Below are positions 17,782 to 32,183 of a DNA stretch of 64,000 nt, one piece after another. The position numbers and the translations under genes were made by a program. The stretch lies in NCBI GenBank assembly GCA_913045175.1, contig CAJWQG010000006.1:1-64000 (forward strand), read 5' to 3'. Positions within the stretch are counted from its first letter, which is position 1. The number at the start of each line of letters is the position of its first letter. The notes beneath the pieces were generated by a model. That model saw only the letters and a program-made list of their open reading frames with translations. It did not search any database and was not told where the DNA came from. The stretch comes from an uncultured Gammaproteobacteria bacterium (GTDB lineage Bacteria > Pseudomonadota > Gammaproteobacteria > Pseudomonadales > Azotimanducaceae).

Positions 17782-18867
17782 TCAGAGTTGCCTTGTCCCG
17801 TCCGCTAACCCGGGAACTTCACAAAAGAAATTGTTGTCCACCTCAACGCTTACGGCTGAATTGGCGTGCGCTGCGCCGCCCCAGTTAGGCATCACCATGG
17901 AGTAGAGTCCACTACCGCCGGCCACCATCACCAGAATATTCTTCGGTTCAGCAAATGCGGAGTAAGTCTCGTCGGAAAAATCTCGACTAAACTGACCAGC
18001 GTAGCGGTTGTGGTCGGCGGTGGGCAGATGAGTAAGTTCCCACAGTCGTTTTTGTACCGATTCCCGATTCATGTTTGCCCGTTCCAGGACGCTGGCGTGC
18101 TTCGGCCCAAGTACAACGAGCGCAGTGCCGGAAGCCAAGATGGCATTGTTGGTGGCAATGTTTGCTAGCCCAATAGACAACACATGGAGCAGTTTCTCGG
18201 CATCTTCCGGATCATCCGCGTTGTCACTGTAGATAACGGAGTGAGGTGCCTCACAGCCCAGTACGGTAACGGCGCTATCGGCTGCATCGAATCCGAGGCT
18301 CGTATGCATAGGCGGGAAGGGTGAAGCTTCCTCGTCTTCCGCGAGACAGTAAGTGAACTTGCCTGGATGGCCCAACAGTGCCATATCAGAGACGCCGGGT
18401 TTACCGCCACCGATATTGATGAGGCACAGTCGTAGCGCTCTGCCAATACTGGCGTTGGCGCGGTGTCCTGGCCCCAGTGCACCAAAGCCTGATGCGACCG
18501 GGCCGCACTCAAATCGCGCGGGACCATTGACAATGATTAACGGTGCCGTGCAATGCGTTGTCGCCTGTACTTCCGTCAGATCGAATCTAGGATCAGCAAC
18601 CGCTTTTACGGCAGCGATGACGATAGGCATGTAGTCAGGGATGCATCCGGCCATCACTGCCGCAACAGCAACCTTTTCAACCGTGGCAATACCCATTCCC
18701 GGGCCCAACTCTCCAAGGACCATGTCGGGGTCCAGGCCGGTCGCGATAATCAGTCGTTCAACGCGCTCCTCCGTCGGTATGACTACGGGCAGGCCATCAG
18801 TACAGCCCATTTCATGGAGTGTCTCTAACGCGACTTCTTCATTCGAAGCTTCTAATAGCTCACTCAT
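17782..18867 (-). CDS. UGSC-associated partner protein (TDGLP protein), stand-alone
   Basis: A 361-residue protein I recognise only as the regular neighbour of UGSC selenoproteins. It is homologous to residues 180-520 of the protein encoded at 23809-25371. Shared blocks are TDGLPVV-PT-ERV, TVEK-A--AV-AGC-P-Y, VNGP-R, GALG-G-RANA-IGRALRL, GG-KPG and K-T-C-AE-EE. Two cysteines are conserved between the two copies, here C75 (AGC) and C174 (YCLAE), so a thiol function is possible. Its ATG overlaps the UGSC stop as ATGA, so the two are translationally coupled and likely form a complex. No signal peptide or membrane segment. The reaction is unknown. Confidence 0.8.
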   Translation of the reverse strand: MSELLEASNEEVALETLHEMGCTDGLPVVIPTEERVERLIIATGLDPDMVLGELGPGMGIATVEKVAVAAVMAGCIPDYMPIVIAAVKAVADPRFDLTEVQATTHCTAPLIIVNGPARFECGPVASGFGALGPGHRANASIGRALRLCLINIGGGKPGVSDMALLGHPGKFTYCLAEDEEASPFPPMHTSLGFDAADSAVTVLGCEAPHSVIYSDNADDPEDAEKLLHVLSIGLANIATNNAILASGTALVVLGPKHASVLERANMNRESVQKRLWELTHLPTADHNRYAGQFSRDFSDETYSAFAEPKNILVMVAGGSGLYSMVMPNWGGAAHANSAVSVEVDNNFFCEVPGLADGTRQL

Positions 18868-19397
18868 GCTGCAAATCGATCCACAATTTCCTCAACAATA
18901 TTATTGGCGATTTCCTGCATTCGGGCTTCGCCGGTACCCGCCACCGGGTGGGGTAGCTGTACTCTTGGAACAGTCGGCATACCAACAGACTGGGCGACAA
19001 AGTCACCCTGGGGCCAAAAGTCTTCCGTTACGAGGGATACGACCGGCATCCCGCTCTTTGCAATCTTGATTCCGTCACGCACGGTGCCGGATGTGCAACT
19101 GCCTCAATGGCCGTAGGCGGCGATGGCCACCTGACAGCTCGAGTTGATTTCTGCGAGCATCTCGTCGCTGACCACAATGGCGGCGTTTCGCTTATTCCAC
19201 AGTTTGGTGGAAACCTTGGGAAGACGTTCACGCAATGCGTTGTCGACCTTCGTCAGGAATAATTCGGAATCGGGAAATCCATTAGCGAGCAAGCCTACGG
19301 TGATTCCCTCGCCATCGTTGGCACTAATGTCCTTCGAGAGCTCATAGAGGTCAATCTCTGTTGCTATCTCACCTCGAGGATCATGAAACTTAACCAT
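18864..19397 (-). CDS. UGSC-family selenoprotein, copy 1 (in-frame TGA = Sec98)
   Basis: The frame from the ATG at 19397 (GGAGATGAACA upstream) reaches TGA at 19106-19104 after 97 codons and continues without break for 79 more to TGA at 18866. The bases after the first TGA give U-G-S-C-T-S-G-T, the hallmark of the UGSC (seleno)protein family, so the product is 177 residues with selenocysteine at 98. A hairpin starting 11 nt after the UGA fits a bacterial SECIS. The true stop overlaps the next gene (ATGA), which makes sense only if the UGA is read through. The Sec and C101 form a U-x-x-C redox pair. Conventional gene callers would split this into two short ORFs. The substrate is unknown. Confidence 0.9.
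19069..19092 (-). promoter_or_regulatory. Candidate bacterial SECIS hairpin, UGSC copy 1
   Basis: On the minus strand, starting 12 nt after the UGA, ATCCGGCAC can pair with GTGACGGAAT around a CGTGC loop: two A-U pairs, one bulged A, three G-C pairs, one G/A mismatch, then three pairs. The distance and the GU in the loop match the geometry of the E. coli fdhF element. Folded by eye only. Confidence 0.55.
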
Positions 19398-19416
19398 TGT
19401 TCATCTCCATCTCAAA

Positions 19417-19479
19417 AACTCAAAACGCATAAATCATAACTCAAAAATCAAAACTCACAACTCAAAAATCAAACTCCTA
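19417..19479. repeat. Three 21-bp A-rich tandem repeats between DUF3604 and UGSC genes
   Basis: Units starting AACTCAAAA at 19417, 19438 and 19459 repeat every 21 bp; the second and third share their first 15 bases (AACTCAAAAATCAAA). They fill most of the 79-bp gap between the DUF3604 stop and the UGSC start. Two helical turns per unit would place any bound factor on one face, but low-complexity slippage is equally possible. Confidence 0.6.
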
Positions 19480-21366
19480 AGGGCTATACCAGATCGGAGA
19501 ACTCCACGCACGATCCTGCAGTGTTGCGGGGAAGTCATCTCTTGGCTCAAAACCTGCACGAATAGCATCCCAGGTGCTCCATCGGCATTTCGGGTTTTCC
19601 AACACTCTGGCGTAGTAAAACGCGTGCTGATCCTGATCGAAGTCTGGATCCTGCCACAACGCCTTGATCTCCGGATCACCAATATCCTGTGGGATCTCGC
19701 AGGTGGTGATGTCAACCGTTGCGCCATTGTCGGGGCAGCGATGGTTTTTAGTATCTACCGTGCCGCCGTTAGAGCAGGCAACGTCGTAAACCATTTCCCT
19801 GGGTTCACCATCTTCGACCCAGCCTTTGATGATCTGTAGTCGTTGCAGCGGAGCGGTGTCAGGATCTCGCATTGCCCACACAAAAAATGAAGGTGATACT
19901 TCATTGTGAGTCAGATCGTTCCCCATGGTAACACCGTTAGCGTAGGCCTCGGCGATAGCGTTCCCAGAATTGACAATTGAACTGTCGAAGCCAGTGGACC
20001 CGAAAAACCGGATCTTGATGCGTGGACCGCTGGTGCTAAATGTTTCCTTGCGACGAAATGCATCATAAACATCAGCCCGGGTATTGGATTCTGCCCAGAC
20101 ACCGGCAAGCCCGGAGGCACCCCAATAATTAGGTGCGCCGGTTGCGTATTTTAGCTCTTCGGGCGTTGAGTTCGGCAGCGGGACTGAGCCGCGTCTATGG
20201 GGCTCAGCGTCCAGAACGCCAGCCTTGCTCCAGTAGTTGTCTTCATCGAATGAACCGGCGCCCGTGTGCGTATCCGACGCGCCAATCACACCGAACTTGT
20301 AGGGATTAAATCCAACGCTTTCCTGCATGACCATCCCGTTGAGATAGGCCTCGCGTACGTAGCTACCGGGGATTTTTGAGAACTCGGGGCTGGCAATAAT
20401 ATAAGGCATGATCTCGAAGTCTGCCCACTCGTCATTGGGTGAGAGTGTTGGGTGTGTTTCCGAAGTACCCTTTGCCTGCGTGATTTCCACGATAGGTTCG
20501 TTGCGCATGCGTAGTTCAGCATAGTCGGCGTCCATCGGATTACCCGCATAGGTCGTTTTCTGGAACATCCAGCCATCTGATCCATTGGAGTTGTGTGGGA
20601 TGGCTAGAGACTCTATACCTCGCGCGCGCAGGCCATCCATCCATCTCCATAGGTCCTCTGGGTTCAGAGAATCCAGGGAAACGTGTATCTGTTCCGGTAC
20701 ATTGCTGCTGCGAAAGATGACATTGCGGTGCAGGTTTTCAGCCCTGGCACCGGTAGCGGTGAATTCGTAGCCGATAAAGGTAGTGAAGTTTCCCGGGTCA
20801 TTGTGGCGTTCAGCCGCTGCGATGGTCTCCTGCCATGCGGATCGGGCTACATCCCGATCGTCCAGTTTATCTTCCAGATTGGCATCAGCCGTTTCGCTTC
20901 TTCGCCCCAAAACGTACCGGGTGAATCCTCGCATCGCGTTCAGTGCACTCTCGAAGTCAGTCGCTGCCCGCATGGCTGGCGCCAGTTCGTGTTCGCGATG
21001 AGGAGAATCTTCTTTTGCCAGTTCAGCCAACATGCCAAGGTACATGCCGTGGTCTGTGACGGCGACAAAGTCCAGCGGCTTCTTTAGTTGCATCGTAAAG
21101 CCGGAAGAATGTTCTATTGCGCCTCCCTTGCCAAAAATATAGGCGTCATCAGGCGTACGGCGGGTTAGGAACATATAAGCATCCATCGAAAATATGGTAT
21201 GCACATGGGTATCGCCGAAATAGGCATTCCTATGGGGATTGGAGTCAATCGAATCCTCGGGTGGATTGGCGGTGACAGCCGGTGACGAGGGTCTATCATC
21301 CTGACAACCTGCTAGTGTCAGTGACACTAGCAGTGGCACTAGCAGTGGCAACCCCCACCATCTCAT
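19477..21366 (-). CDS. DUF3604 lipoprotein (PHP-like metallohydrolase), copy 1
   Basis: A 629-residue DUF3604 protein. The N-terminus ends in a lipobox (LVSLTLAGC), so it is probably lipid-anchored. The PHP-like metal motif is NAYFGDTHVHTIFSMDAY (H-x-H), followed by DFVAVTDHGMYLG, FIGYEFTATG, AIPHNSNGSDG, FGVIGASDTHTGAG and the C-terminal KCRWSTWDAI-AG. Members are predicted metal-dependent phosphoesterase/hydrolase-like enzymes with no agreed substrate. It is the first gene of the 21366-17782 minus-strand group with the UGSC selenoprotein and its partner, 79 bp upstream of the former. Full-length sister at 30297-32183, broken sister at 27690-28793. Confidence 0.88.
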   Translation of the reverse strand: MRWWGLPLLVPLLVSLTLAGCQDDRPSSPAVTANPPEDSIDSNPHRNAYFGDTHVHTIFSMDAYMFLTRRTPDDAYIFGKGGAIEHSSGFTMQLKKPLDFVAVTDHGMYLGMLAELAKEDSPHREHELAPAMRAATDFESALNAMRGFTRYVLGRRSETADANLEDKLDDRDVARSAWQETIAAAERHNDPGNFTTFIGYEFTATGARAENLHRNVIFRSSNVPEQIHVSLDSLNPEDLWRWMDGLRARGIESLAIPHNSNGSDGWMFQKTTYAGNPMDADYAELRMRNEPIVEITQAKGTSETHPTLSPNDEWADFEIMPYIIASPEFSKIPGSYVREAYLNGMVMQESVGFNPYKFGVIGASDTHTGAGSFDEDNYWSKAGVLDAEPHRRGSVPLPNSTPEELKYATGAPNYWGASGLAGVWAESNTRADVYDAFRRKETFSTSGPRIKIRFFGSTGFDSSIVNSGNAIAEAYANGVTMGNDLTHNEVSPSFFVWAMRDPDTAPLQRLQIIKGWVEDGEPREMVYDVACSNGGTVDTKNHRCPDNGATVDITTCEIPQDIGDPEIKALWQDPDFDQDQHAFYYARVLENPKCRWSTWDAIRAGFEPRDDFPATLQDRAWSSPIWYSP

Positions 21367-21377
21367 GGCTGTTCCTT

Positions 21378-21396
21378 ACCCGTATTTGTTACGGGT
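21378..21396 (-). promoter_or_regulatory. Perfect hairpin directly upstream of the DUF3604 ribosome binding site
   Basis: ACCCGTA-TTTGT-TACGGGT forms a perfect 7-bp stem with 5-nt loop. On the minus strand it ends exactly where AAGGA, the ribosome binding site of the DUF3604 gene (ATG at 21366), begins. It could protect the leader or modulate initiation. No T-tract, so not a terminator. The rest of the 21367-21521 gap is AT-rich and may hold promoters for both directions. Confidence 0.5.
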
Positions 21397-21521
21397 GAAT
21401 TATATCGACCATCTTGAACCGCAGAACAACAGTATAAAGGTATCAGTTGATAACCCGGTGTTATGGATTAACAATCCACAGTTGTTATTACTGAGCTGTT
21501 CCACCTGTTACGATACGCGCC

Positions 21522-22286
21522 ATGAAAGAACCCCTGTTATGGTTTGTGCTCATTGGCGCATTGCTGTTCGCTGCCGATCAATTAAGAGCACCCGATACAA
21601 TCGTAGTTAACGACGTGGTGAAGACCCAGATTGCCACTCTCTGGGAAACCCAGATGGGTGCGAAGCCCAGTGCAGATGAACTTGATTCTCTGGTGCGCGA
21701 CTGGGTGCGTGAAGAGGTCTTCTACCGTGAAGCACTGCGATTAGGTCTCGATCGAGAAGACACCATTATTCGACGGCGACTGGTGCAGAAGCTGGGTTTT
21801 CTAGCGCGCGAGGTTGATGAGGAATCAATCACGGCAGAAGATGTTCAGACCTATTACCAGGAAAACATTGCTGACTACACCTTGCAGGTTCGATATTCAT
21901 TGTCGCAGGTCTATTTCAAAAATACTGACCAGTACGACTCTCTGATGCAACGACTGGCTGAGGGTGATAACTGGAAGGAACTGGGGGATAGCTCGATGCT
22001 GCCTCGCAGTCTGGTGCAAAAGAGCGAGCGTGAGGTGACGTCGACGCTGGGCGGTGAATTTACGGCGCAGTTATCCGAATTGATTAAGGGGCAGTGGGTT
22101 GGGCCAGTCTCCAGTACTTTTGGGCTTCATATAGTCAGGCTCGATGAATTAATACCGGAAACGCGGCGGCCACTTGCCTATATCGAGAATCAGGTTATCG
22201 CCGACCTTTTGCATCAACGCCGCGAACAATCCCTCGATGACTACCACGCAGAGCTACTGGATCAGTATGAAGTGGTTTACGAATAG
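21522..22286 (+). CDS. PpiC-type peptidyl-prolyl isomerase (parvulin-like), membrane-anchored
   Basis: A 254-residue protein with one N-terminal membrane segment (PLLWFVLIGALLFAADQLRA) and no cleavage site, so probably held on the periplasmic face. Residues 25-110 resemble the SurA-like helical chaperone part (VREEVFYREALRLGLDREDT). Residues 115-220 resemble a parvulin domain (LAEGDNWKELGDSSMLP, ending WVGPVSSTFGLHIVRLDE). It likely assists folding of exported proteins. It overlaps the beginning of the HupE-like frame by 20 bases; such parvulin/HupE pairs are common in marine proteobacteria and suggest joint function, possibly in maturation or metal supply. Confidence 0.85.
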   Translation: MKEPLLWFVLIGALLFAADQLRAPDTIVVNDVVKTQIATLWETQMGAKPSADELDSLVRDWVREEVFYREALRLGLDREDTIIRRRLVQKLGFLAREVDEESITAEDVQTYYQENIADYTLQVRYSLSQVYFKNTDQYDSLMQRLAEGDNWKELGDSSMLPRSLVQKSEREVTSTLGGEFTAQLSELIKGQWVGPVSSTFGLHIVRLDELIPETRRPLAYIENQVIADLLHQRREQSLDDYHAELLDQYEVVYE

Positions 22287-23355
22287 AGTCCGTCATCCTG
22301 AACGGAGTGAAGGATCTCTGTATGTCCCGGAGAGCAAGATCCTTCACTCCGTTCAGGATGACATTGGCGTAAGCAGATGCCACTTTGTTCTGAAAGGGTT
22401 TCTTCTTATTCTGGTGATTCTGATCGCCCAACCATCCTGGGCCCACGAAATGCGCCCCGCACTACTTACTATTAAACAGGTGGCCGGCGAGCAAAGTGAC
22501 AGTGCCACCTATCAGGCTGTCTTCAAGCAACCCCAGGTCCAGGGACGCTTTCTTAATCTTTCCATAGTGACCAATTGCGACAGCACGCTCGTCAACGCCA
22601 AAACCAATTCCAGTGCGCTGGAGGAAACGTTTTCCTTATCGTGCGCCGGGCCGCTTGCCAGCATCGAGATAGCCGGCCTTGAAAGAACATTGATCGATAC
22701 CATGATCACTGTTGAAGACCTGAGCGGATCGACCAAAAATTACCTGGTTAACGGCCGGGAGCCGAAAGTCAGTATTGCCGGAGAGACGTCGACACCGGTT
22801 TATCTTGTACTTGGCGTCGAGCATCTATTTTTTGGCATCGATCATGTGTTGTTTGTTCTGCTGCTGCTTTATCTGGTCAATGGCTGGGGGAATCTGGTTA
22901 AGGTGGTTACCAGTTTTACCGTGGCGCATTCCATCACTCTCGCATTGTCCGCATTTAATGTTGTTTCTGTGTCCCAGGCGCCCGTTGAAGCGCTGATTGC
23001 GCTCAGCATTGTGCTACTGGCAGCGGAAGCGCTGCGTGGCGAAGGCAGCCTGGTTCATCGCAAGCCCTGGCTTATCACATTTGCGTTCGGACTGTTGCAT
23101 GGTCTTGGATTTGCCGGTGCACTGGCGGAAATTGGATTACCCCAGGCGAGTGCGGCGATGGCACTGTTTCTGTTCAACGTTGGTATCGAGATCGGACAAC
23201 TGTCAATTATCGCCGTGGCGCTGACGCTCACCTTTGCAGTTACCAGGACAGGACTGAAACTCACCAGGACCATGGTCTCGTTGCCGGTCTATATCGTTGG
23301 CGGGGTATCCGTCTTCTGGTTTATCGACCGTAGTCTGCAGGTGGTTGCAAGCTAG
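22267..23355 (+). CDS. HupE/UreJ-family membrane protein, N-terminus disturbed by a repeat
   Basis: The conserved part starts with a signal-like segment (GFLLILVILIAQPSWAHEMR), then a periplasmic beta domain and, from about residue 170, HupE/UreJ_2 membrane helices with the metal-type motif LGVEHLFFGIDHVLFVLLLL and GLLHGLGFAGAL. Members are thought to move nickel or cobalt. I take the ATG at 22267, but residues 10-32 are the translation of an inserted hairpin repeat (HPERSEGS...ILHSVQDD). The original start was therefore lost, displaced, or is a non-ATG codon near 22390 just ahead of the signal sequence. The frame stays open through the repeat, so the protein may be made with an odd extension. 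Confidence 0.75.
   Translation: MKWFTNRVRHPERSEGSLYVPESKILHSVQDDIGVSRCHFVLKGFLLILVILIAQPSWAHEMRPALLTIKQVAGEQSDSATYQAVFKQPQVQGRFLNLSIVTNCDSTLVNAKTNSSALEETFSLSCAGPLASIEIAGLERTLIDTMITVEDLSGSTKNYLVNGREPKVSIAGETSTPVYLVLGVEHLFFGIDHVLFVLLLLYLVNGWGNLVKVVTSFTVAHSITLALSAFNVVSVSQAPVEALIALSIVLLAAEALRGEGSLVHRKPWLITFAFGLLHGLGFAGALAEIGLPQASAAMALFLFNVGIEIGQLSIIAVALTLTFAVTRTGLKLTRTMVSLPVYIVGGVSVFWFIDRSLQVVAS
22292..22362. repeat. Perfect 26-bp inverted repeat (widespread GTCATCCTGA hairpin element)
   Basis: Arms 22292-22317 and 22337-22362 are perfect reverse complements (GTCATCCTGAACGGAGTGAA... against its mirror) around a 21-nt loop. This is the intergenic hairpin family found in many bacterial genomes and mistranslated as HPERSEGS/ILHSVQDD. 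It begins 6 nt after the parvulin stop and lies inside the reading frame of the HupE-like gene. At this length the RNA would form a very stable stem between two co-transcribed genes. Confidence 0.9.
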
Positions 23356-23808
23356 CTGCTGGTCTCACTCGGGATTTTCGCGCCTATTGGCGAGTACAGC
23401 CTTCCTCATCACGGCATAACCAATAACATTACGTTATCAATAGATGTTGTTCTCTTTATAGAAACTAATTCGGTCTTGCGCGAAACTAAGAAAACGTAGA
23501 ACCAGTATAAAATTAGAACCAGCTTAAAACAGGCTGTGCCGGGCTATAGGCCATCCAATCACCGAGGGGAACAAACATGAAGATAAACACATCGGCGATC
23601 GTGTTCGCCATTTTTGCTGTTGTGGGCGCTAGTACGGGTTAGCCACGGCTGGTCTGTGAGTGCCTGCCGCTGAATTGTTTGCTAATACGTCATAGCCTGT
23701 GCGAAGGTGGTAGGGCATGGCGCACCAATACCCTATTCCTCATAGACACCACTTATGGTTTGCTCGAAACTTGGACACTCTCAGTAGGTTTCAGCTCCAG
23801 GAGAAAAA
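23356..23808. other. 453-bp non-coding stretch with direct repeats and a leader-like ORF
   Basis: No full gene fits here. Two 17-bp direct repeats beginning TAGAACCAG lie at 23497-23513 and 23514-23530, preceded by two GAAACTAA copies, so the area may be a promoter or operator. A mini-ORF at 23578-23643 follows. The final bases CCAGGAGAAAAA are the ribosome binding site of the thioredoxin-TDGLP gene. The 165 bp after the mini-ORF show no coding signal I can support. Confidence 0.5.
23578..23643 (+). pseudogene. 21-codon signal-peptide-like mini-ORF (remnant or leader)
   Basis: After GAGGGGAACAAAC the ATG at 23578 starts MKINTSAIVFAIFAVVGAST-G and stops at TAG. The sequence is a good signal peptide core and has a plausible ribosome binding site, but nothing recognisable continues in frame after the TAG. 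It is most simply the 5' stump of a lost exported protein; a short leader peptide regulating the downstream gene is a weaker alternative. Confidence 0.4.
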
Positions 23809-25371
23809 ATGCTTGGCGTAACATCGTTCTCACTCACTGGTCTTTCCGGGCAGGAAACTAGTTTTTCTACGGATCGTGCCAGTGTGGTGTGTTTCGTAAA
23901 AGAAGACTGTCCTACCTGTCGAACGGTGATGCCGGTATTGGCAGCTATGTTCAAGACATTTGCTGATCACATCGATTTTCACGTCATCGGGCAGACCGCG
24001 GAAGGTAATAGGCAGTTGGCTGAGGAGTTCGAACTACCCTTTGACCTGTTGGATGACAGCGCGCTTAAGGTGTCTTTCGACACCGACGTTGAAACGGTAC
24101 CCACACTGCTGGTCACCAATGCCAAAGGACAAACGGAGTCCGAGAGAATCGGTTTCGTGCGCGAAGAGTGGCAGGCATTGGTCGACGACCTGATCCAACA
24201 GTTTTCGGGAAGTGAGTGCGACCTAGACTGGTCAGCCCTACCTGAATGGCGCCCCGGCTGTGGTTCTTTGTCTGTCGATCCGATGCATGCAGGCCGTCTG
24301 CAGGCCGAGGCGGAAGGAAGCCCTATTCGTGCACGGCGCATAGAGGTGGGCAGCCTCGATGATGAATTTGAATTTATGTTTGACCAGGGTTTTACCGATG
24401 GTCTGCCGGTCGTACCTCCCACGCCTGAGCGGGTGTTACGGATGTTGTCAGGCACTAAGCGTGATGCCCAGGAAGTGGTGGCAACGATGGCTCCGAATAT
24501 GGCGAAGGTTACGGTGGAAAAAATTGCCATTAATGCAGTGCTGGCCGGTTGTAGACCGGAATATTTGCCGGTTGTGATTGCCGCTGTAGAAGCTGTTTGT
24601 ACCGATGACTTCAATATTCACGGCGTCATGGCGACGACCATGGGCGCGAGCCCCGTGATGGTGGTCAACGGGCCGATTCGTCACAGTCTTGACATGAATA
24701 TGGGCCTTGGGGCCCTGGGCCAGGGCAATCGTGCCAATGCGACGATCGGCCGGGCGCTGCGTCTTGCTATTCGTAACGTCGGTGGTGCTAAACCGGGAGG
24801 AACCGAACGTTCAACGTTCTCGAATCCCATGAAGTACACGATGTGCTTTGCCGAGTGGGAGGAGCGTTCCAATTGGGACCCACTGCATGTGGAAAGGGGG
24901 TTTTCTCCTGAAGATTCTGTGGTCACCGTATTTGCCATGACGGGAGGCCCGACGATCATAATGGATGAGGACTCGCTGGGTGGCGATGCGCTCGCAGGTT
25001 CTATCGGGGCGTCGACCAGCACCATGTTGAATGCCAAAGCCTATGGCTTTTCCACCTGCTTAATGGTGGTGTCTCCGGAGCATGTCGATACCTTCAAACG
25101 GGATGACTATAGCAAGGCACAAATGCGTCGACGCATGCAGGTGGCGAGCGAAAAGACGGTTGATGAGCTGATCGAGCTCGGGGTGACCGATGAACAACAG
25201 GCACGACTGAGTAAATTGGAACCAGATACTCGCCTCTCCAAATTTGGGAGTGACGAAGATATTGATATCGTCGTTGCCGGTAGCGAGGCGGGAAAATGTA
25301 CCGCCTTCTTTCACGGCTGGATACCGCGCAGTATCGGTTCCATTCCGGTTTCATCTAAGATAGAAGTGTAA
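23809..25371 (+). CDS. Thioredoxin-fold / TDGLP fusion protein, partner of UGSC selenoprotein
   Basis: A 520-residue two-part protein with ATG after AGGAG. Residues 1-135 form a thioredoxin fold: strand ASVVCFV, active-site KEDCPTC (C34, C37) and cis-proline VETVPTLLV (P98). After a linker (LPEWRPGCGSL, residues 145-155), residues 180-520 are homologous to the stand-alone TDGLP protein at 17782-18867, with TDGLPVVPP, AGC (C248), NRANATIGRALRL and MCFAEWEE (C346). The fusion of a CxxC thioredoxin to this domain, right before a UGSC selenoprotein gene, strongly suggests electron delivery to the Sec-Cys centre. No signal peptide, so cytoplasmic. It is 27 nt upstream of the selenoprotein. Confidence 0.85.
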   Translation: MLGVTSFSLTGLSGQETSFSTDRASVVCFVKEDCPTCRTVMPVLAAMFKTFADHIDFHVIGQTAEGNRQLAEEFELPFDLLDDSALKVSFDTDVETVPTLLVTNAKGQTESERIGFVREEWQALVDDLIQQFSGSECDLDWSALPEWRPGCGSLSVDPMHAGRLQAEAEGSPIRARRIEVGSLDDEFEFMFDQGFTDGLPVVPPTPERVLRMLSGTKRDAQEVVATMAPNMAKVTVEKIAINAVLAGCRPEYLPVVIAAVEAVCTDDFNIHGVMATTMGASPVMVVNGPIRHSLDMNMGLGALGQGNRANATIGRALRLAIRNVGGAKPGGTERSTFSNPMKYTMCFAEWEERSNWDPLHVERGFSPEDSVVTVFAMTGGPTIIMDEDSLGGDALAGSIGASTSTMLNAKAYGFSTCLMVVSPEHVDTFKRDDYSKAQMRRRMQVASEKTVDELIELGVTDEQQARLSKLEPDTRLSKFGSDEDIDIVVAGSEAGKCTAFFHGWIPRSIGSIPVSSKIEV

Positions 25372-25398
25372 AAGTGTCAAGAAGATGAGGAGTTTGCA

Positions 25399-25920
25399 AT
25401 GACAGTGACACTGTTAGATCCAACCAACGAGGAAGTCCCCGTCGCCCGGCAAGTCACGCCACGACCGGCGGAGGTCAAGGGACGGATTGCCTTTATGGAT
25501 ATTTCCAAACGCCAGGGCAATCTGCTGCTTGATAGGTTACAAGAGGCGTTGGAACAGCGCCTGCCGCAGATTGAGATTTCGCGCTATGTGAAACCGACCT
25601 TCTCCAAGCCAGCGCCCGATGAGTTGCGCCAGGAAATCAAAGCGGGCAACGATTTCGTGGTGGTCGCGCTGGCCGACTGAGGCTCTTGTACGTCGTGCAG
25701 TTTGCATGACATAGTTTGGTTTGAAATCCAGGGAATGCCTTCGGTTGCTATTGCCTCGACGGAGTTCGCCGATGCGGCGGAAACGCAGGCTGATGCACTC
25801 GGTATGTCCGACGCGAAGCGCGTATTGGTACAACACCCGATTCAGGATGCCAATCCGGCACAAATGTGTGCGAAAGCTGACGCCATTGTCGATCAGGTGA
25901 TTGCTGCACTAAGCAATTGA
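25399..25920 (+). CDS. UGSC-family selenoprotein, copy 2 (in-frame TGA = Sec94)
   Basis: From the ATG at 25399 (GAGGAG upstream) 93 codons lead to TGA at 25678-25680, followed in frame by U-G-S-C-T-S-C-S and 72 further codons to TGA at 25918. The product is 173 residues. Alignment with copy 1 shows the same layout: a first half with few matches, the UGSCTS centre, then GMP-V----TE-F and a closing helix (ADAIVDQVIAALSN). A clean 8-bp hairpin begins 11 nt after the UGA (25692-25710). Copy 2 has an extra Cys at U+6. It follows the thioredoxin-TDGLP gene by 27 nt and precedes an amidohydrolase by 67 nt. Function unknown; a redox role is inferred from the Sec-x-x-Cys centre. Confidence 0.92.
25692..25710 (+). 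promoter_or_regulatory. Candidate bacterial SECIS hairpin, UGSC copy 2
   Basis: GTCGTGCA (25692-25699) pairs with TGCATGAC (25703-25710), eight pairs including one G-U, around the loop GTT. Eleven bases separate it from the UGA at 25678-25680. This spacing matches the E. coli fdhF element and the two other candidates of this window. Confidence 0.7.
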
Positions 25921-25987
25921 TCTAAAAATGCTGGGGTCAGAATAAAATCGCAATTACATGAACACTATTTATTAAGAAGACGTATCT

Positions 25988-27697
25988 ATGGAGCATGAAA
26001 CAATCATTCGCGGTGGCACGGTAGTTGACGGCACAGGGGCGGCGGCCAAACGTGCAGACGTGGCGATAGATGAGGGGCGCATCAGCCGCATCGGCGATCT
26101 CACAGGTGAACAAGCGGGACGGACAATTGATGCAAACGGCAAAATAGTGACCCCCGGGTTTGTTGATCTGCACACTCACCTCGATGCACAGGCGGGATGG
26201 GATCCACAGATGAGCCCCAGCTCCTACCATGGTGTTACCACAGGAATCATAGGTAACTGCGGGATGACCTTTGCCCCAGTGCGTAAGGAGAATACCCGCT
26301 TCCTGGCTGAGCTGATGGAAGCAGTAGAAGACATCTCGGCAGAAGCAATTTTGGATGGACTCCCCTGGAACTGGTCAAGTTTTGGCGAGTATCTTGATAC
26401 CGTTCAGGGTCTTAATCCCGCGATCAATATTGCTTCTTTGGCCGGCCATTGTGCGATCCGCTTTGATGTTATGGGCGATAAGAGCTGCGATGACGGCGTG
26501 CACCCGGATGATCGGGAATTAGCCGGGATTGTTGATCTTGCCAAACGGACTATCGACGAGGGGGCCATTGGTATCTCCACTTCTCGTTTTATGAATCATC
26601 GAATGCTGGATGGTCGACTGGTTCCCGGAACATGGGCGGAGGAACGCGAACTTCAGGCGATCCAGGAAGCGATCGTTGAAGCCGGTGGCAGGGGCGCCAT
26701 GTTCCAGGCTGTGTGTGACTTTGAAAATCGTTTTGACGTTGACAAGGGGGTGCTGGAAGCCGGTGCGGAGGCAGGATGCCACGTTGTATTCTCCAACAGG
26801 GCACGCGGCGATGGTGATGGCGGTGTTTCCCAATGGAAAGAGTTTCTGGATCGCAATAATCAAGACGGTAAGAAGATGTCATCGTGCGTCCATACGCGGC
26901 CAAGTGGTTCTTTTTTTGGCCTGGCGCAGACCGTTTTTAACCCAATGGTCAATGACCTCGGGCCTTATTGGGGAGAAGTGATGTCGTTAATGACAATCCC
27001 CGAGAGGGTCGAAGCGATGAAACAGCCCGGTATGCGGGAGAAGCTAATCGCCGAAGGGGAACAGAGGGAGCAGTTCATTCGCATGGCGCGTGTACTTCAC
27101 CCCATGGGAATGGATGAATACCCTGATTGGGATATTGATAGTCGTCTTACGCTGGCTAGTATTGCAGAAGCGGCTGGTAAGAGTCCGATAGAAGTTTACG
27201 TAGACCGGATGATCGAATCCGAGGGTAGGGAATTATGGAATCTGTGGGCTTTCGGTGGTGATCTTGAGAACCAATGGAATTTGATGCGTTTGCCTCAGGT
27301 GGTCCCAATGCTTGGCGATGCGGGCGCCCATGTCGGTTTGTTCACTGATGCAGATTCTCCGACTTTCCTGCTAAGCGAGCTCGCCAGAGATCGCGGTGTC
27401 TTTACGCTGGAAGAGGCGGTACACCGGATAACAGCGCAGTCCGCCGAGGTCGTCGGTTTGAAAGAGCGGGGACAGATTCGTGAAGGCTGGCATGCTGATA
27501 TCAATGTGATTGATTACGACAATCTAAAGTCATGCCACCCGGAATATATTCGAGACCTGCCCCACAAGGTGGGTCGTATTGTGACGAAGAGCGAAGGCTA
27601 TGACGCAACGCTTGTCTCTGGCCGGATACTGATCGAAAAGGGAAAGTTCACCGGCGATAGCCGAGGTGAAGTGATTCGTGATTTTGCGCGTGGATAA
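25988..27697 (+). CDS. Amidohydrolase, N-acyl-D-amino-acid deacylase-like
   Basis: A 569-residue metal-dependent amidohydrolase. Visible features are the small beta-sandwich start (EHETIIRGGTVVDGTGAAAK), the metal motif FVDLHTHLDAQAGWDP (about residue 60), YHGVTTGIIGNCGMTFAPV with the cysteine typical of D-aminoacylases, and the end HADINVIDYDNL with a DLP-x-KVGRIV stretch. Members remove acyl groups from D-amino acids or hydrolyse related amides; many relatives in marine bacteria have no known substrate. It follows the UGSC selenoprotein in the same direction. Its stop overlaps the GTG start of the damaged DUF3604 gene by 8 bases. Confidence 0.85.
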   Translation: MEHETIIRGGTVVDGTGAAAKRADVAIDEGRISRIGDLTGEQAGRTIDANGKIVTPGFVDLHTHLDAQAGWDPQMSPSSYHGVTTGIIGNCGMTFAPVRKENTRFLAELMEAVEDISAEAILDGLPWNWSSFGEYLDTVQGLNPAINIASLAGHCAIRFDVMGDKSCDDGVHPDDRELAGIVDLAKRTIDEGAIGISTSRFMNHRMLDGRLVPGTWAEERELQAIQEAIVEAGGRGAMFQAVCDFENRFDVDKGVLEAGAEAGCHVVFSNRARGDGDGGVSQWKEFLDRNNQDGKKMSSCVHTRPSGSFFGLAQTVFNPMVNDLGPYWGEVMSLMTIPERVEAMKQPGMREKLIAEGEQREQFIRMARVLHPMGMDEYPDWDIDSRLTLASIAEAAGKSPIEVYVDRMIESEGRELWNLWAFGGDLENQWNLMRLPQVVPMLGDAGAHVGLFTDADSPTFLLSELARDRGVFTLEEAVHRITAQSAEVVGLKERGQIREGWHADINVIDYDNLKSCHPEYIRDLPHKVGRIVTKSEGYDATLVSGRILIEKGKFTGDSRGEVIRDFARG

Positions 27698-28793
27698 TCG
27701 TGTTCTGACTCTGTGTTTGCTTGTCTGTGCCGGCTGTGCCTAAGAGGACCAAACTGAGGAACTTCGTGTCGAAGTGACGGAACAATCTACAGGACAACCC
27801 TCAAAACATTCTACAAGTGAATCCGTTCCGGCCCGTAACCTCATCCAGCGCTTCCAGAATGTCAATTACGATATGCCTGCCGATGTTGGCACGGTGGATC
27901 CGTCAGCGAATTCTCAGCGTAATGCTTATTTTGGTGACCTTCACGTTCACAGCACATATTCGTTTGATGCGTTTGCCTACGGCACCATCGCCACACCCTA
28001 CGATGCCTATCGATACGCGAAAGGAGAAAAGTTAAGGCATCCCGTCGGCTTCGACGTGCAATTGCGGGAGCCGCTCGATTTCTATGCGGTGACCGATCAC
28101 GCGATGTACATCGGCGGAATGAATGCAGCAGCCGACACGTCAACGGAATTCTCGAAGCACAAGCCTTTTAGATTGCTACACAATCTGAACTCGCCGGACA
28201 GAGAGGTGGGTCGCGATGTTCGCGCCAGGGCTATGCCAACTTTTGTTATGTCGACGTTCGCCGGTATAGAGGAAGGCGCCTTCGATCTTGAGGCAGTCAA
28301 CAAGATATCCCGTGATACCTGGTCTGACATCATTGCTGCGGTAGAGCAGCATAATGATCCGGGTAACTTCACGACTTTTGTGGGTTATGAGTACACCAGC
28401 CAGTCGGATGAACGGGGTAATCTGCATCGCAATGTCATTTTCCGCGGTGCTGACAAGCTCCCGACCATACCGTTCTCGCGCCTGCACAGCAGGAACCCGG
28501 AAAAGCTCTGGGACTGGATGGATGGTCTCCGGGAGCAGGGCATTGAAGCATTGGCGATCCCGCACAATGCCAATGGTTCCAATGGGGCTATGTTTGAGCT
28601 GGTTGACTGGGCGAAGAATCCGATGGATGCGGAATATACGGGCCAGCGCCTTCGCAATGAACCGCTTGTAGAGATTACTCAGATCATAGGTTTCTACGAC
28701 GTTGGTGATGTTCTTGCCAAACTCGTTGCCAGTTCCGTCCATGCATATAACGATGTTCTTGCCAGCCATAGTTACCTCCCTATTTACCTATGA
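27690..28793 (+). pseudogene. DUF3604 lipoprotein pseudogene (nonsense codon and 3' truncation)
   Basis: The frame starting GTG at 27690 gives VDNRVLTLCLLVCAGCA, a lipoprotein-type leader, then TAA at 27741-27743, and resumes in the same frame. From 27774 on it is a clear DUF3604 protein: NAYFGDLHVHSTYSFDAF, DFYAVTDHAMYIG, FVGYEYTSQ, AIPHNANGSNGAMFE, RNEPLVEITQ. Immediately after EITQ (28682), where the full-length sisters continue with KGTSET and some 320 further residues, homology ends and 36 unrelated residues lead to TGA at 28793. The enzyme is thus half-length and has a stop in its leader. The break coincides with the remnant of an opposed DUF2235 gene. Confidence 0.85.
28689..28769 (-). 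pseudogene. DUF2235 (Tle1-like hydrolase) N-terminal remnant
   Basis: On the minus strand a perfect ribosome binding site (GGGAGG) precedes MAGKNIVICMDGTGNEFGKN and then ITNVVE, the start of DUF2235 proteins, whose N-terminal nucleophile region reads DGTGN. After about 27 residues the frame runs into antisense of the DUF3604 gene. The rest of the hydrolase (normally several hundred residues) is absent. Both truncated genes meet within 28680-28692. Confidence 0.75.
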
Positions 28794-30296: not shown

Positions 30297-32183
30297 TTAA
30301 CGCGCAGGCTCATACCATATCGGTGAACTCCAGGCGCGTTCCTGAAGGGTTGCGGCAACGTCTTCCCTGGGAGCAATACCCGCGCGAAGGGCGTCCCAGG
30401 CAGTCCAGCGACAGGTTGGGTTTTGTAGAACGCGAACATAGTAAAACGCGCGCTGGCTGTGATTGAAGGTCGGGTCCTGCCAGACGGCCTTGAGTTCCGT
30501 GGCACCCTTGTCGAAGGTGGTACTGCAATCGGTAATATCCACCGTCGCGCCATTGTCCGGACATCGATGGGTGTCGGGATCAGGCGTTAGTCCGTCGGAA
30601 CACGCAACATCGAAAACACGCTCGTGTGACTCTCCACCTTCCAACCAGCCCTTAACGATCTGTGCGCGTTGCAGCCAGGATTCCCGCGGGTCGCGCAGTG
30701 CCCAGATAAGAAACTGAGGTACTGTGTCTCCCATTGCCGCGAGGTCACCCCCCATGGGTACGCCGTCAGCGTACGCCTCAGCGATTGCGTCGTGGGTCTC
30801 AATAAGTTCTTTGGAGTAGTTGTAACCAGCAAAAAAACGCAGCTTGATTCTAGGCCCCGTGGTGGCAAAGGTTTCCTTGCGGCGCAGCGCCGCGAAGATT
30901 GACGCGCGCGTGTTCTCCTCGGCCCATACACCTGCGAGGCCAGAGGCACTAAAATCAACGAGTGCTGGATTGACTGGCTGTTTTGGATTTTTTGCTGGCA
31001 CACTACCTCGTGCTTCCGGAGAACCATCGCTAACACCGAGTTTGGCGAAGTACTGATCTTCCTCGATGGGGCTCGCTGCATTGTGGCCATCGGTCGAGCC
31101 AATGAAGCCAAATTGGTAGGGGTTATTGCCGATTGATTGTTCCAGTTCCAGCCCGGTGCGTAGTGCATCGCGCGCATACGCGCCGCTGGTGGCCCCCTCC
31201 GAACGGGTTAGGTTGCCGTCCATGGTGATCACGAAACTACTCTTTTTCCAGATTTCAAAGTCGGCCCATTCATCCGTGGACGACAACGTGGGTTGTGTCT
31301 CCGACGTACCTTTCACCTGGGCGATTTCAACTAAGGGTTCGTTACGTGTACGCAGATCCGCATAGGCCACATCAATAGGTTCACCGGCGATGTTGCTGCG
31401 CTCGAACATCAGGCCCCGACTCCAGTTAGCGTTGTGCGGAATTGCCAGTGCCTCTATGCCATTGCCACGTTGTGTGTCCATCCATCGCCATAGGGCTTCC
31501 GGGTTGCCATTACCGGCGCCAAAGGGCATCGCGGGCACCTCGCTTCCCTCGAAAATGACATTGCGGTGCAAGTTGGCACCACCTGGTTGGTATGAGTATT
31601 CGTAGCCAATAAACGCTGTAAATTCTCCGGGCAGGTTATGACGTTCAGCCGCTTCGATATTCTCCTGCCACGCTGCACTGATGACAGGCTCGACATCCAG
31701 CCCTGGTACGGGTTTGCCGATCAAATTGGGAGAAGCTAGCGCCATTTGTGCAACCTGGCGCTCTTTCGGGGTACCGGTATGACTTTGTATTACCAGAGGG
31801 TGCTTTGACAGTAGACTTTCGGGGTCTACATAGGCGGCACCCAAACCCATGTTTTCCGCATGGTCGGTGACGCCATAGAAGTCCAGGGCGCCACCCCGCA
31901 GGCGCATCGGATAGCCCAACGGATGGGTGACGGTTTCACCCTTCGCGTAGCGATAGGCATCGTCCGGTGTTGCGCGAACACCAACGTTGTAAGCATCGGA
32001 TGAGTTGGTGGTGTGGATGTGCAGGTCGCCAAAATAGGCATTGCGAAGCGGATTCGCAGCCTTTGTCATCCCTGTTTTTTCTGTTGACGCTTGTGGCGCA
32101 GCGGGTGTGATGTCATCGGGTTGGTCACACCCACCCAACAGTACTAGTCCTGCCACTATATGTCGTACGCGAATACCGTTCAT
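30297..32183 (-). CDS. DUF3604 lipoprotein (PHP-like metallohydrolase), copy 2
   Basis: A full-length 628-residue sister of the protein at 19477-21366. It has a lipobox (GLVLLGGC), the metal motif NAYFGDLHIHTTNSSDAY, DFYGVTDHAENMG, IGYEYSYQPGG, FGFIGSTDGHNAAS and the end CRWTAWDALRAGIAPREDVA. Its ATG overlaps the stop of the haloalkane dehalogenase gene, so the pair is one transcript. That pairing is the best functional hint in this window for DUF3604: it may handle a product of, or a compound taken up together with, a halogenated substrate. Confidence 0.88.
   Translation of the reverse strand: MNGIRVRHIVAGLVLLGGCDQPDDITPAAPQASTEKTGMTKAANPLRNAYFGDLHIHTTNSSDAYNVGVRATPDDAYRYAKGETVTHPLGYPMRLRGGALDFYGVTDHAENMGLGAAYVDPESLLSKHPLVIQSHTGTPKERQVAQMALASPNLIGKPVPGLDVEPVISAAWQENIEAAERHNLPGEFTAFIGYEYSYQPGGANLHRNVIFEGSEVPAMPFGAGNGNPEALWRWMDTQRGNGIEALAIPHNANWSRGLMFERSNIAGEPIDVAYADLRTRNEPLVEIAQVKGTSETQPTLSSTDEWADFEIWKKSSFVITMDGNLTRSEGATSGAYARDALRTGLELEQSIGNNPYQFGFIGSTDGHNAASPIEEDQYFAKLGVSDGSPEARGSVPAKNPKQPVNPALVDFSASGLAGVWAEENTRASIFAALRRKETFATTGPRIKLRFFAGYNYSKELIETHDAIAEAYADGVPMGGDLAAMGDTVPQFLIWALRDPRESWLQRAQIVKGWLEGGESHERVFDVACSDGLTPDPDTHRCPDNGATVDITDCSTTFDKGATELKAVWQDPTFNHSQRAFYYVRVLQNPTCRWTAWDALRAGIAPREDVAATLQERAWSSPIWYEPAR

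Follow-up and report, generated by a model that had tools for sequence, protein, structure and literature searches.

UGSC selenoproteins and the orphan protein TDGLP form a near-obligate gene pair and a candidate thioredoxin-fed reductase

The 64,000-nucleotide stretch analysed here (the window; positions 1 to 64,000 of contig CAJWQG010000006.1, assembly GCA_913045175.1) comes from an uncultured gammaproteobacterium of the Azotimanducaceae and carries two loci in which a gene of the UGSC selenoprotein family adjoins a gene for the protein TDGLP. On the minus strand, UGSC gene 1 (18864-19397; 177 residues, selenocysteine (Sec) at residue 98, UGSCTSG type) has its Sec codon at 19104-19106 and its stop UGA at 18864-18866, and the start of TDGLP partner 1 (17782-18867; 361 amino acids) overlaps this stop as ATGA. 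On the plus strand, an open reading frame (ORF) of 520 amino acids (23809-25371) encodes TDGLP partner 2, which is composed of an N-terminal thioredoxin/redoxin-like domain with CPTC at residues 34-37 and a linker with PGCGS (23809-24330), fused to a TDGLP domain that starts at about residue 171 (24319-25371). UGSC gene 2 (25399-25920; 173 residues, Sec at 94, UGSCTSC type) follows on the same strand after a gap of 27 nucleotides (nt), with its Sec codon at 25678-25680 and its stop UGA at 25918-25920.

Both UGSC proteins are members of the PF24696 family. PF24696, with a gathering cut-off of 25, matched UGSC gene 2 with 155.9 bits and UGSC gene 1 with 147.8 bits, and all 73 rows of our UGSC alignment match this family. 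Against NF041046 (cut-off 125) the plus-strand UGSC scored above (155.3 bits) and the minus-strand UGSC below (111 bits). TDGLP partner 1 and the TDGLP domain of partner 2 matched no Pfam or NCBIfam family, and among 79 TDGLP rows compared with Pfam and NCBIfam no family matched more than one row at E ≤ 0.05. The thioredoxin domain of partner 2 scored 27.0 bits with AhpC-TSA (cut-off 26) and 17.9 bits with Thioredoxin, below the cut-off of 23.5. Between the two window pairs the identity is 34% for TDGLP and 24% for UGSC, and the pairs fall in different clades of the TDGLP tree. Therefore, as far as their sequences tell, they are not a recent duplication of each other. An earlier, sequence-only reading of this DNA had described the overlapping UGSC-TDGLP order on the minus strand, the thioredoxin-TDGLP-UGSC order on the plus strand and two cysteines kept by both partners (C75/C248 and C174/C346), and had argued that conservation of the pair cannot be due to simple duplication of the segment. 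The arrangement, the in-frame UGA codons and the cysteines were all found as described, C75 and C174 are each kept in at least 90% of the 79 TDGLP rows, and the separate clades agree with the argument on duplication.

An in-frame UGA is present in both window UGSC genes when TGA is read through, and the genome has two parts of the machinery that decodes it: a tRNA-Sec of 61.5 bits, over the gathering threshold, and a SelB of 470.6 bits, over its cut-off. In the survey described below, Sec occupies the motif in 76 of 84 motif-scored UGSC copies and Cys in the other 8. Cys-type UGSC was found at L020, L022, L026, L029, L040, L041, L091, L092 and L054; L054 lies outside the motif pattern used for scoring, as do L068, L079, L082 and L090. 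Folding of 50 nt from the UGA gave a possible SECIS-like (selenocysteine insertion sequence) hairpin at about 19067-19106 on the minus strand and about 25678-25717 on the plus strand, and a hairpin lies 3' of the UGA in all four UGSC copies of this genome. Over the survey, the mean folding z against mononucleotide shuffles was -1.39 for the 76 Sec copies, which fold somewhat better than their shuffles, and -0.22 for the 8 Cys copies. The alignment fold of 73 Sec copies reached -1.29, whereas 50 column shuffles gave -0.07 ± 0.21 (lowest -1.22). This signal is weakened by the alignment fold of the 8 Cys copies, which reached -1.66 with a different helix. The Rfam SECIS model gave no match at the UGSC genes, even at E ≤ 10. 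A SECIS element 3' of the UGSC UGA is thus plausible from the sequences. The same genome also carries PrdB-like (PF07355) genes with an in-frame UGA in a UPxC motif (L095, L096, L097 and L099, on contigs 2 and 58); of five PF07355 places, four are over the cut-off.

The four UGSC and four TDGLP genes of this genome make up four neighbouring pairs, and on contig 12 the two are fused into a single ORF. When UGSC and TDGLP were searched separately in 398 genomes of the phylum, the same five genomes, this one included, had both, and 393 had neither. A TDGLP-led scan of GTDB species genomes was then used for a wider survey, in which the best 80 loci were analysed (L003-L008 and L094, repeats of the same places, were dropped). 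In 69 of the 80 loci the best-scoring TDGLP has a UGSC no more than 1 kb away, always on the same strand and with a median gap of 52 nt. By nearest UGSC, 44 of these 69 paired loci are UGSC-first and 25 TDGLP-first. At L068 and L079 the UGSC is 1.4-1.8 kb from the TDGLP. The remaining nine loci have no UGSC on the stretch examined, and three of them (L030, L033 and L083) are at a contig edge.

The pairing was also seen from the UGSC side. Of 30 UGSC-led loci, 28 have a same-strand TDGLP no more than 1.5 kb away, which is partial at the stretch end in L122 and L138; in one of the two misses, L129, a TDGLP lies 2.1 kb away on the same contig, and the other is L131. These 30 loci were drawn from 29 genomes reached via TDGLP and share some places with the first set, so the two samples are not independent. 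All 29 TDGLP-chosen genomes have UGSC, and the UGSC and TDGLP counts are equal in 19 and differ by at most 2 in 9, and the counts of one genome (G412, discussed below) are lower bounds. Among 24 plasmid records matched, both genes were present at 11 of the 11 loci examined, the UGSC scores being weak at two of them (30.8 bits at L175 and 22.1 bits at L181); a phage search gave no match. Two haloarchaeal plasmid loci (L178, 6001-8663; L179, 5953-8652) carry TDGLP-UGSC-TDGLP triplets with Cys-type UGSC. The pairing spans bacteria and haloarchaea in both gene orders, and on this distribution UGSC and TDGLP are a near-obligate pair.

Single-chain UGSC-TDGLP fusions were found in 19 rows from 16 loci, 15 among the best 80 and one in the genome studied here. 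This count followed from 22 same-frame rows at 18 loci after removal of L026, where the TGA is not the motif codon, and of two L082 rows with ambiguous bases. One locus, L053, has a fusion in each order. The UGSC and TDGLP distances are correlated over 76 pairs (mirror-tree r 0.74, to which relatedness of the organisms contributes), and the maximum of 1000 permutations was 0.21. Gene order switches at most 6 times on the TDGLP tree, compared with at least 17 times in 300 shuffles. In the tree and order analyses the partner was assigned by nearest UGSC, and two assignments (L049_460 and L086_7944) look wrong, so six is an upper figure. Within TDGLP, Asp24, Arg143 and Glu177 (numbering of TDGLP partner 1) are kept in 79 of 79 rows.

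A model of the L047 fusion, built from a 17-row alignment, reached a mean predicted local distance difference test score (pLDDT) of 85.2 and a predicted template modelling score (pTM) of 0.88; pLDDT fell below 50 only at residues 173-211, the linker, and 374-378. We think that such a pTM could hardly be reached without a defined placement of the UGSC and TDGLP domains, and a compact joint fold is predicted. The motif residues 90-93 of this model lie between a strand (83-89) and a helix (92-107). For the UGSC part (residues 23-176), the best VIA matches are Rossmann/flavodoxin/CheY-like, led by a de novo protein (Z 12.2) and 8s7v_H (Z 11.4); Foldseek gave none at E ≤ 0.001, and a thioredoxin fold is not among the matches listed for this part. 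TDGLP partner 1 was modelled from 79 rows (m93175f142d5e) with pLDDT 93.3 and pTM 0.92. Its predicted fold has no clear match in the PDB (best VIA Z 5.4, best Foldseek E 0.0089). Its weak matches, among them class I fumarase alpha (VIA Z 4.9 and the Foldseek E of 0.0089) and, at Z 4.5, Toblerone cyclic-amide hydrolases, fall below the level that the tool deems meaningful.

Thioredoxin is tied to the pair in two ways. Six thioredoxin-TDGLP fusions were found, namely that of the window and those of L068, L081, L087, L090 and L092. The thioredoxin domains of the first four seeded the hidden Markov model (HMM) with which L090 and L092 were found. By Pfam, the domains of L068 and L081 are over the Redoxin cut-off and that of L087 is below the cut-off of its best family. 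The four seed fusions share a Pro-Gly/Ala-Cys-x-Ser linker between the thioredoxin domain and TDGLP, and its conserved Cys could relay electrons. In cultured isolates genes of the thioredoxin system accompany pairs with a CGSC motif: Arthrobacter sp. ERGS1:01 has the order trxB-trxA-TDGLP-UGSC, Roseovarius sp. THAF8 has TDGLP-UGSC-trxB and Variovorax sp. SRS16 has trxB-TctC-SDR-TDGLP-UGSC. The TrxB-like oxidoreductases at L057, L093, L174 and L180 scored lower (110-149 bits) and were not counted as TrxB. An extra Cys at position +6 of the motif is present in 18 of 27 TDGLP-first pairs, in none of 42 UGSC-first pairs and in all five scored thioredoxin-fused pairs (letter-scored pairs; seven pairs had no scored motif). 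The proposal of the sequence-only reading that thioredoxin is the reductant is strengthened by the five further fusions and by the trxB/trxA operons, although fusions and operons together are found at a minority of loci.

The family is expanded in some genomes. Among the 29 TDGLP-chosen genomes, 23 have 2-19 UGSC copies and one has at least 150. The last is a groundwater Chloroflexi metagenome-assembled genome (MAG) (NC_groundwater_644, G412; loci L053 and L086), in which 150 of 208 UGSC candidates were scored and all were over the cut-off; TGA lies inside the match in 146 of these rows and in 4 there is none. For TDGLP, 150 of 216 candidates were scored, and one SelB is over the cut-off. In 247 kb taken from three contigs picked for density (L155-L170), UGA is present at the motif in 57 of 57 UGSC genes, and a TDGLP lies on the same strand within 500 nt in 56 of the 57. 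The motif ranges over UGxC. Since the 57 copies have a median mutual identity of 27% and a maximum of 79%, they are, by their sequences, paralogues and not strain variants. A 2026 review gives, in its accessible part, an upper bound of 63 for a bacterial selenoproteome, that of a Methylomirabilota MAG (PMC13188914). If the Chloroflexi MAG is one genome, its UGSC count is more than twice this quoted maximum. The solute-binding protein family SBP_bac_5 accounts for 44 of the 90 other ORFs in the 247 kb.

No third constant partner was seen around the pairs in the survey; the recurrent neighbours are catabolic and transport genes of several families. Solute-binding proteins gather around the pairs here too: clusters represented by TctC are found at 13 of the 80 loci (e.g. 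L065; 39 copies) and a CoA-transferase III cluster at 10, and luciferase-like, acyl-CoA dehydrogenase, SDR and AMP-binding genes are further neighbours. The commonest neighbour cluster, at 24 loci, proved to be a shadow ORF opposite TDGLP. Aconitase X was rejected as a general neighbour, being found only at L175 and L181, with a weaker match at L047. In the window, UGSC gene 1 is preceded on its own strand by the gene of a DUF3604 protein (19477-21366, minus strand; PF12228, 748.9 bits), and an amidohydrolase gene (25988-27697) neighbours the plus-strand pair. A second DUF3604 gene (27774-28793, plus strand) covers only profile positions 2-266 of 591, and a third lies at 30297-32183 on the minus strand. 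The second is truncated or degraded, unlike the other two copies. It had been suggested from the sequence that DUF3604 lipoproteins flank both loci and form part of the system. Three DUF3604 genes are indeed near, but the plus-strand one is partial and has no lipobox-like start. As a component of the system DUF3604 is dismissed: an HMM of two sequences, the window proteins, gave no match at E ≤ 1e-10 in L009-L093 and thus at none of the 80 surveyed loci. The amidohydrolase was dismissed as a component in the same way, with no match in L009-L093. In both searches the flanks of L089-L093 were 1.5 kb only.

Because UGSC and TDGLP are paired, fused and co-diverged in sequence, the simplest reading is that they are subunits or domains of one enzyme. 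We consider it probable that this enzyme is a thioredoxin-fed reductase, plausibly one that cleaves C-X bonds of small organic molecules. UGSC would be a small Rossmann/flavodoxin-like alpha/beta domain whose U/C-G-x-C motif, with Sec or Cys as its first residue, is predicted to lie between a strand and a helix, and TDGLP, with its Asp24, Arg143, Glu177, C75 and C174, would be an orphan fold packing against it. Since thioredoxin is fused or encoded alongside at some loci, the best-supported cycle would consist of selenolate attack, a selenenyl sulfide and reduction by thioredoxin. The UGSC selenolate would attack a small organic molecule held by TDGLP, and the selenium adduct would be resolved as a selenenyl sulfide by a UGSC cysteine or a TDGLP cysteine. 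Electrons would pass from NADPH through TrxB to thioredoxin, which is fused to TDGLP in the plus-strand pair, and would restore the selenolate. By analogy with glycine and D-proline reductases, the bond cleaved may be a C-X bond adjacent to a carboxylate or a carbonyl group, and different paralogues may serve different imported substrates. From these data we infer active-site roles, reductive chemistry, C-X cleavage and substrates of this kind.

The analogy concerns GrdB and PrdB, in which Sec stands in a U-x-x-C motif and which take part in thiol-driven reductive cleavage. Their partners PrdA and GrdE follow pyruvoyl proprotein chemistry, and TDGLP has no Pfam family. The window UGSC proteins differ from GrdB and PrdB in having no PF07355 match (PF24696 only, at E ≤ 0.01). 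The 2026 review describes PrdB as a selenoprotein that acts in the reductive opening of a ring and GrdB as releasing ammonia (PMC13188914); GrdB-like proteins have been implicated in fluoroacetate defluorination (PMC10838667, accessible part). The motif registers of UGSC and GrdB/PrdB match, and reductive C-X cleavage by UGSC-TDGLP is suggested by analogy. The searches gave no support for homology between them. PF07355 is not among the matches listed for UGSC (25 of 34 families, E ≤ 5), and a four-row profile of the PrdB-like proteins had no PDB relative at E ≤ 0.1. UGSC-TDGLP also resembles thioredoxin-like, peroxiredoxin-like and DsbA-like selenoproteins in its U-x-x-C motif and its coupling to thioredoxin. 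It differs in having thioredoxin as a domain or gene of its own and in the predicted Rossmann/flavodoxin-like fold of the UGSC domain.

Several observations weigh against a thioredoxin-fed reductase made of UGSC and TDGLP. Six loci (L025, L056, L060, L070, L076 and L080) are clearly without a neighbouring UGSC, and in the L070 genome (G418, Poribacteria; UGSC-led locus L131) one UGSC and one TDGLP lie 3.7 Mb apart. Strong TrxB matches are limited to 2 of the 80 loci, namely L011 (1.6 kb away on the opposite strand) and L041 (2.0 kb away on the same strand), and to 3 of the 11 plasmid loci. Free TrxA was found at none of the 80 with an HMM made from one TrxA sequence. The thioredoxin fusions and the extra Cys share clades, as judged from the sequences, so they are not independent evidence. 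The joint UGSC-TDGLP body is predicted indirectly, from the pTM of one fusion. TDGLP has no sequence relative in the PDB at E ≤ 5 and UGSC only ones at E 0.88 or worse. By hhalign, homology of UGSC to the four PrdB-like proteins of its own genome received a probability of 4%, though Sec aligns on Sec. The neighbours are diverse and point to no one substrate, and SBP_bac_5, which lies within 600 nt of 31 of the 57 UGSC genes in the Chloroflexi contigs, is there about as often as chance order would give by our estimate. Fused homologues in Vibrio europaeus (L175, 6659-8344) and Sporomusa termitida (L181, 5323-7047) read MGTS in place of UGSC, both lying near aconitase X and DUF126 genes, and L079 also has neither Sec nor Cys at the motif. 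To judge from such members the scaffold can be kept where the redox centre is absent; L175 and L181 are perhaps a non-redox branch.

Independent occurrence of UGSC and TDGLP, which the sequence-only reading had named as the evidence that would count against a pair, was thus found at six of 80 loci, that of the Poribacteria genome among them, and pairing at 69 of 80. This small unlinked share weakens the pairing and does not overturn it. The view that the two proteins work as a pair gained from the near-obligate adjacency, the frequent fusion, the co-divergence and the predicted fusion structure. In the TDGLP proteins of L070, L076 and L080, the C-terminus aligns in two pieces.

The members with Met or another residue at the Sec site bear on a different reading, in which the pair is a non-redox lyase, isomerase or hydrolase: TDGLP would be the main catalyst, the Sec or Cys of UGSC a nucleophile or metal ligand, and thioredoxin would only keep this residue reduced. 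Such members persist, two of them near aconitase X, and the weak fold matches of TDGLP to the fumarase and the cyclic-amide hydrolases would fit, as would the fumarase genes in the neighbourhoods (2 of 116). However, the fold matches do not reach the meaningful level, the predominance of Sec and, for the rest, Cys among scored copies suits redox or selenolate chemistry, and the TrxB/TrxA operons also speak for a reductive role. We therefore regard a non-redox enzyme as unlikely. The U-x-x-C motif and the linkage to thioredoxin and TrxB would also fit a thiol/peroxide module for antioxidant defence or repair, in which a thioredoxin-type UGSC with TDGLP as docking partner would reduce peroxides, sulfoxides or protein disulfides, and UGSC has been grouped with thioredoxin-like folds (PMC2398784 and PMC13188914, accessible parts). 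Nevertheless, the predicted UGSC domain best matches Rossmann/flavodoxin/CheY-like proteins, and the many paralogues beside solute-binding proteins and catabolic enzymes fit many substrates better than one housekeeping role, which makes such a module improbable in our view. That the window simply holds one mobile or duplicated segment twice, with a pairing that has no functional meaning, is very improbable: pairs are indeed found on plasmids, in one case with an IS1071 transposase about 6 kb away, but the window pairs are divergent and of different clades, and the pairing holds across bacteria and haloarchaea, in both orders and in the 398-genome co-occurrence.

UGSC was described in 2008 as a major selenoprotein family, with a guessed thioredoxin-like fold and a fusion to a domain named 'Unknown_1' (PMC2398784, accessible part). 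'Unknown_1' may be TDGLP, so the fusion has perhaps been reported already. Apart from this fusion, the accessible text on the family does not describe the partner, the near-obligate pairing or the thioredoxin linkage, and in the open-access literature searched, which does not cover subscription papers and preprints, no title or abstract deals with UGSC-TDGLP pairing.

In conclusion, UGSC and TDGLP are best read as the two parts of a probable thioredoxin-fed reductase. A wider proposal is offered tentatively, as one that we think possible but somewhat doubtful: UGSC-TDGLP might be a superfamily of selenoenzymes, so far unrecognised, in which thioredoxin drives the reductive cleavage of many different small organic molecules and every paralogue goes with a receptor of its own, in bacteria and haloarchaea including aerobes. 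Many of the carriers appear from their organism names to be aerobes, and the groundwater Chloroflexi genome, with well over a hundred of these proteins, might then hold the largest selenoproteome known. UGSC has been listed, with no function assigned, as one of the most abundant families of aquatic selenoproteins. The partner and the thioredoxin operons would turn it from an abundant family without a function into a two-part enzyme that can be purified and assayed, and the Cys-type pairs in cultured isolates require no selenium machinery. The numbers of paralogues suggest that selenium-dependent catabolism is larger than has been recorded.

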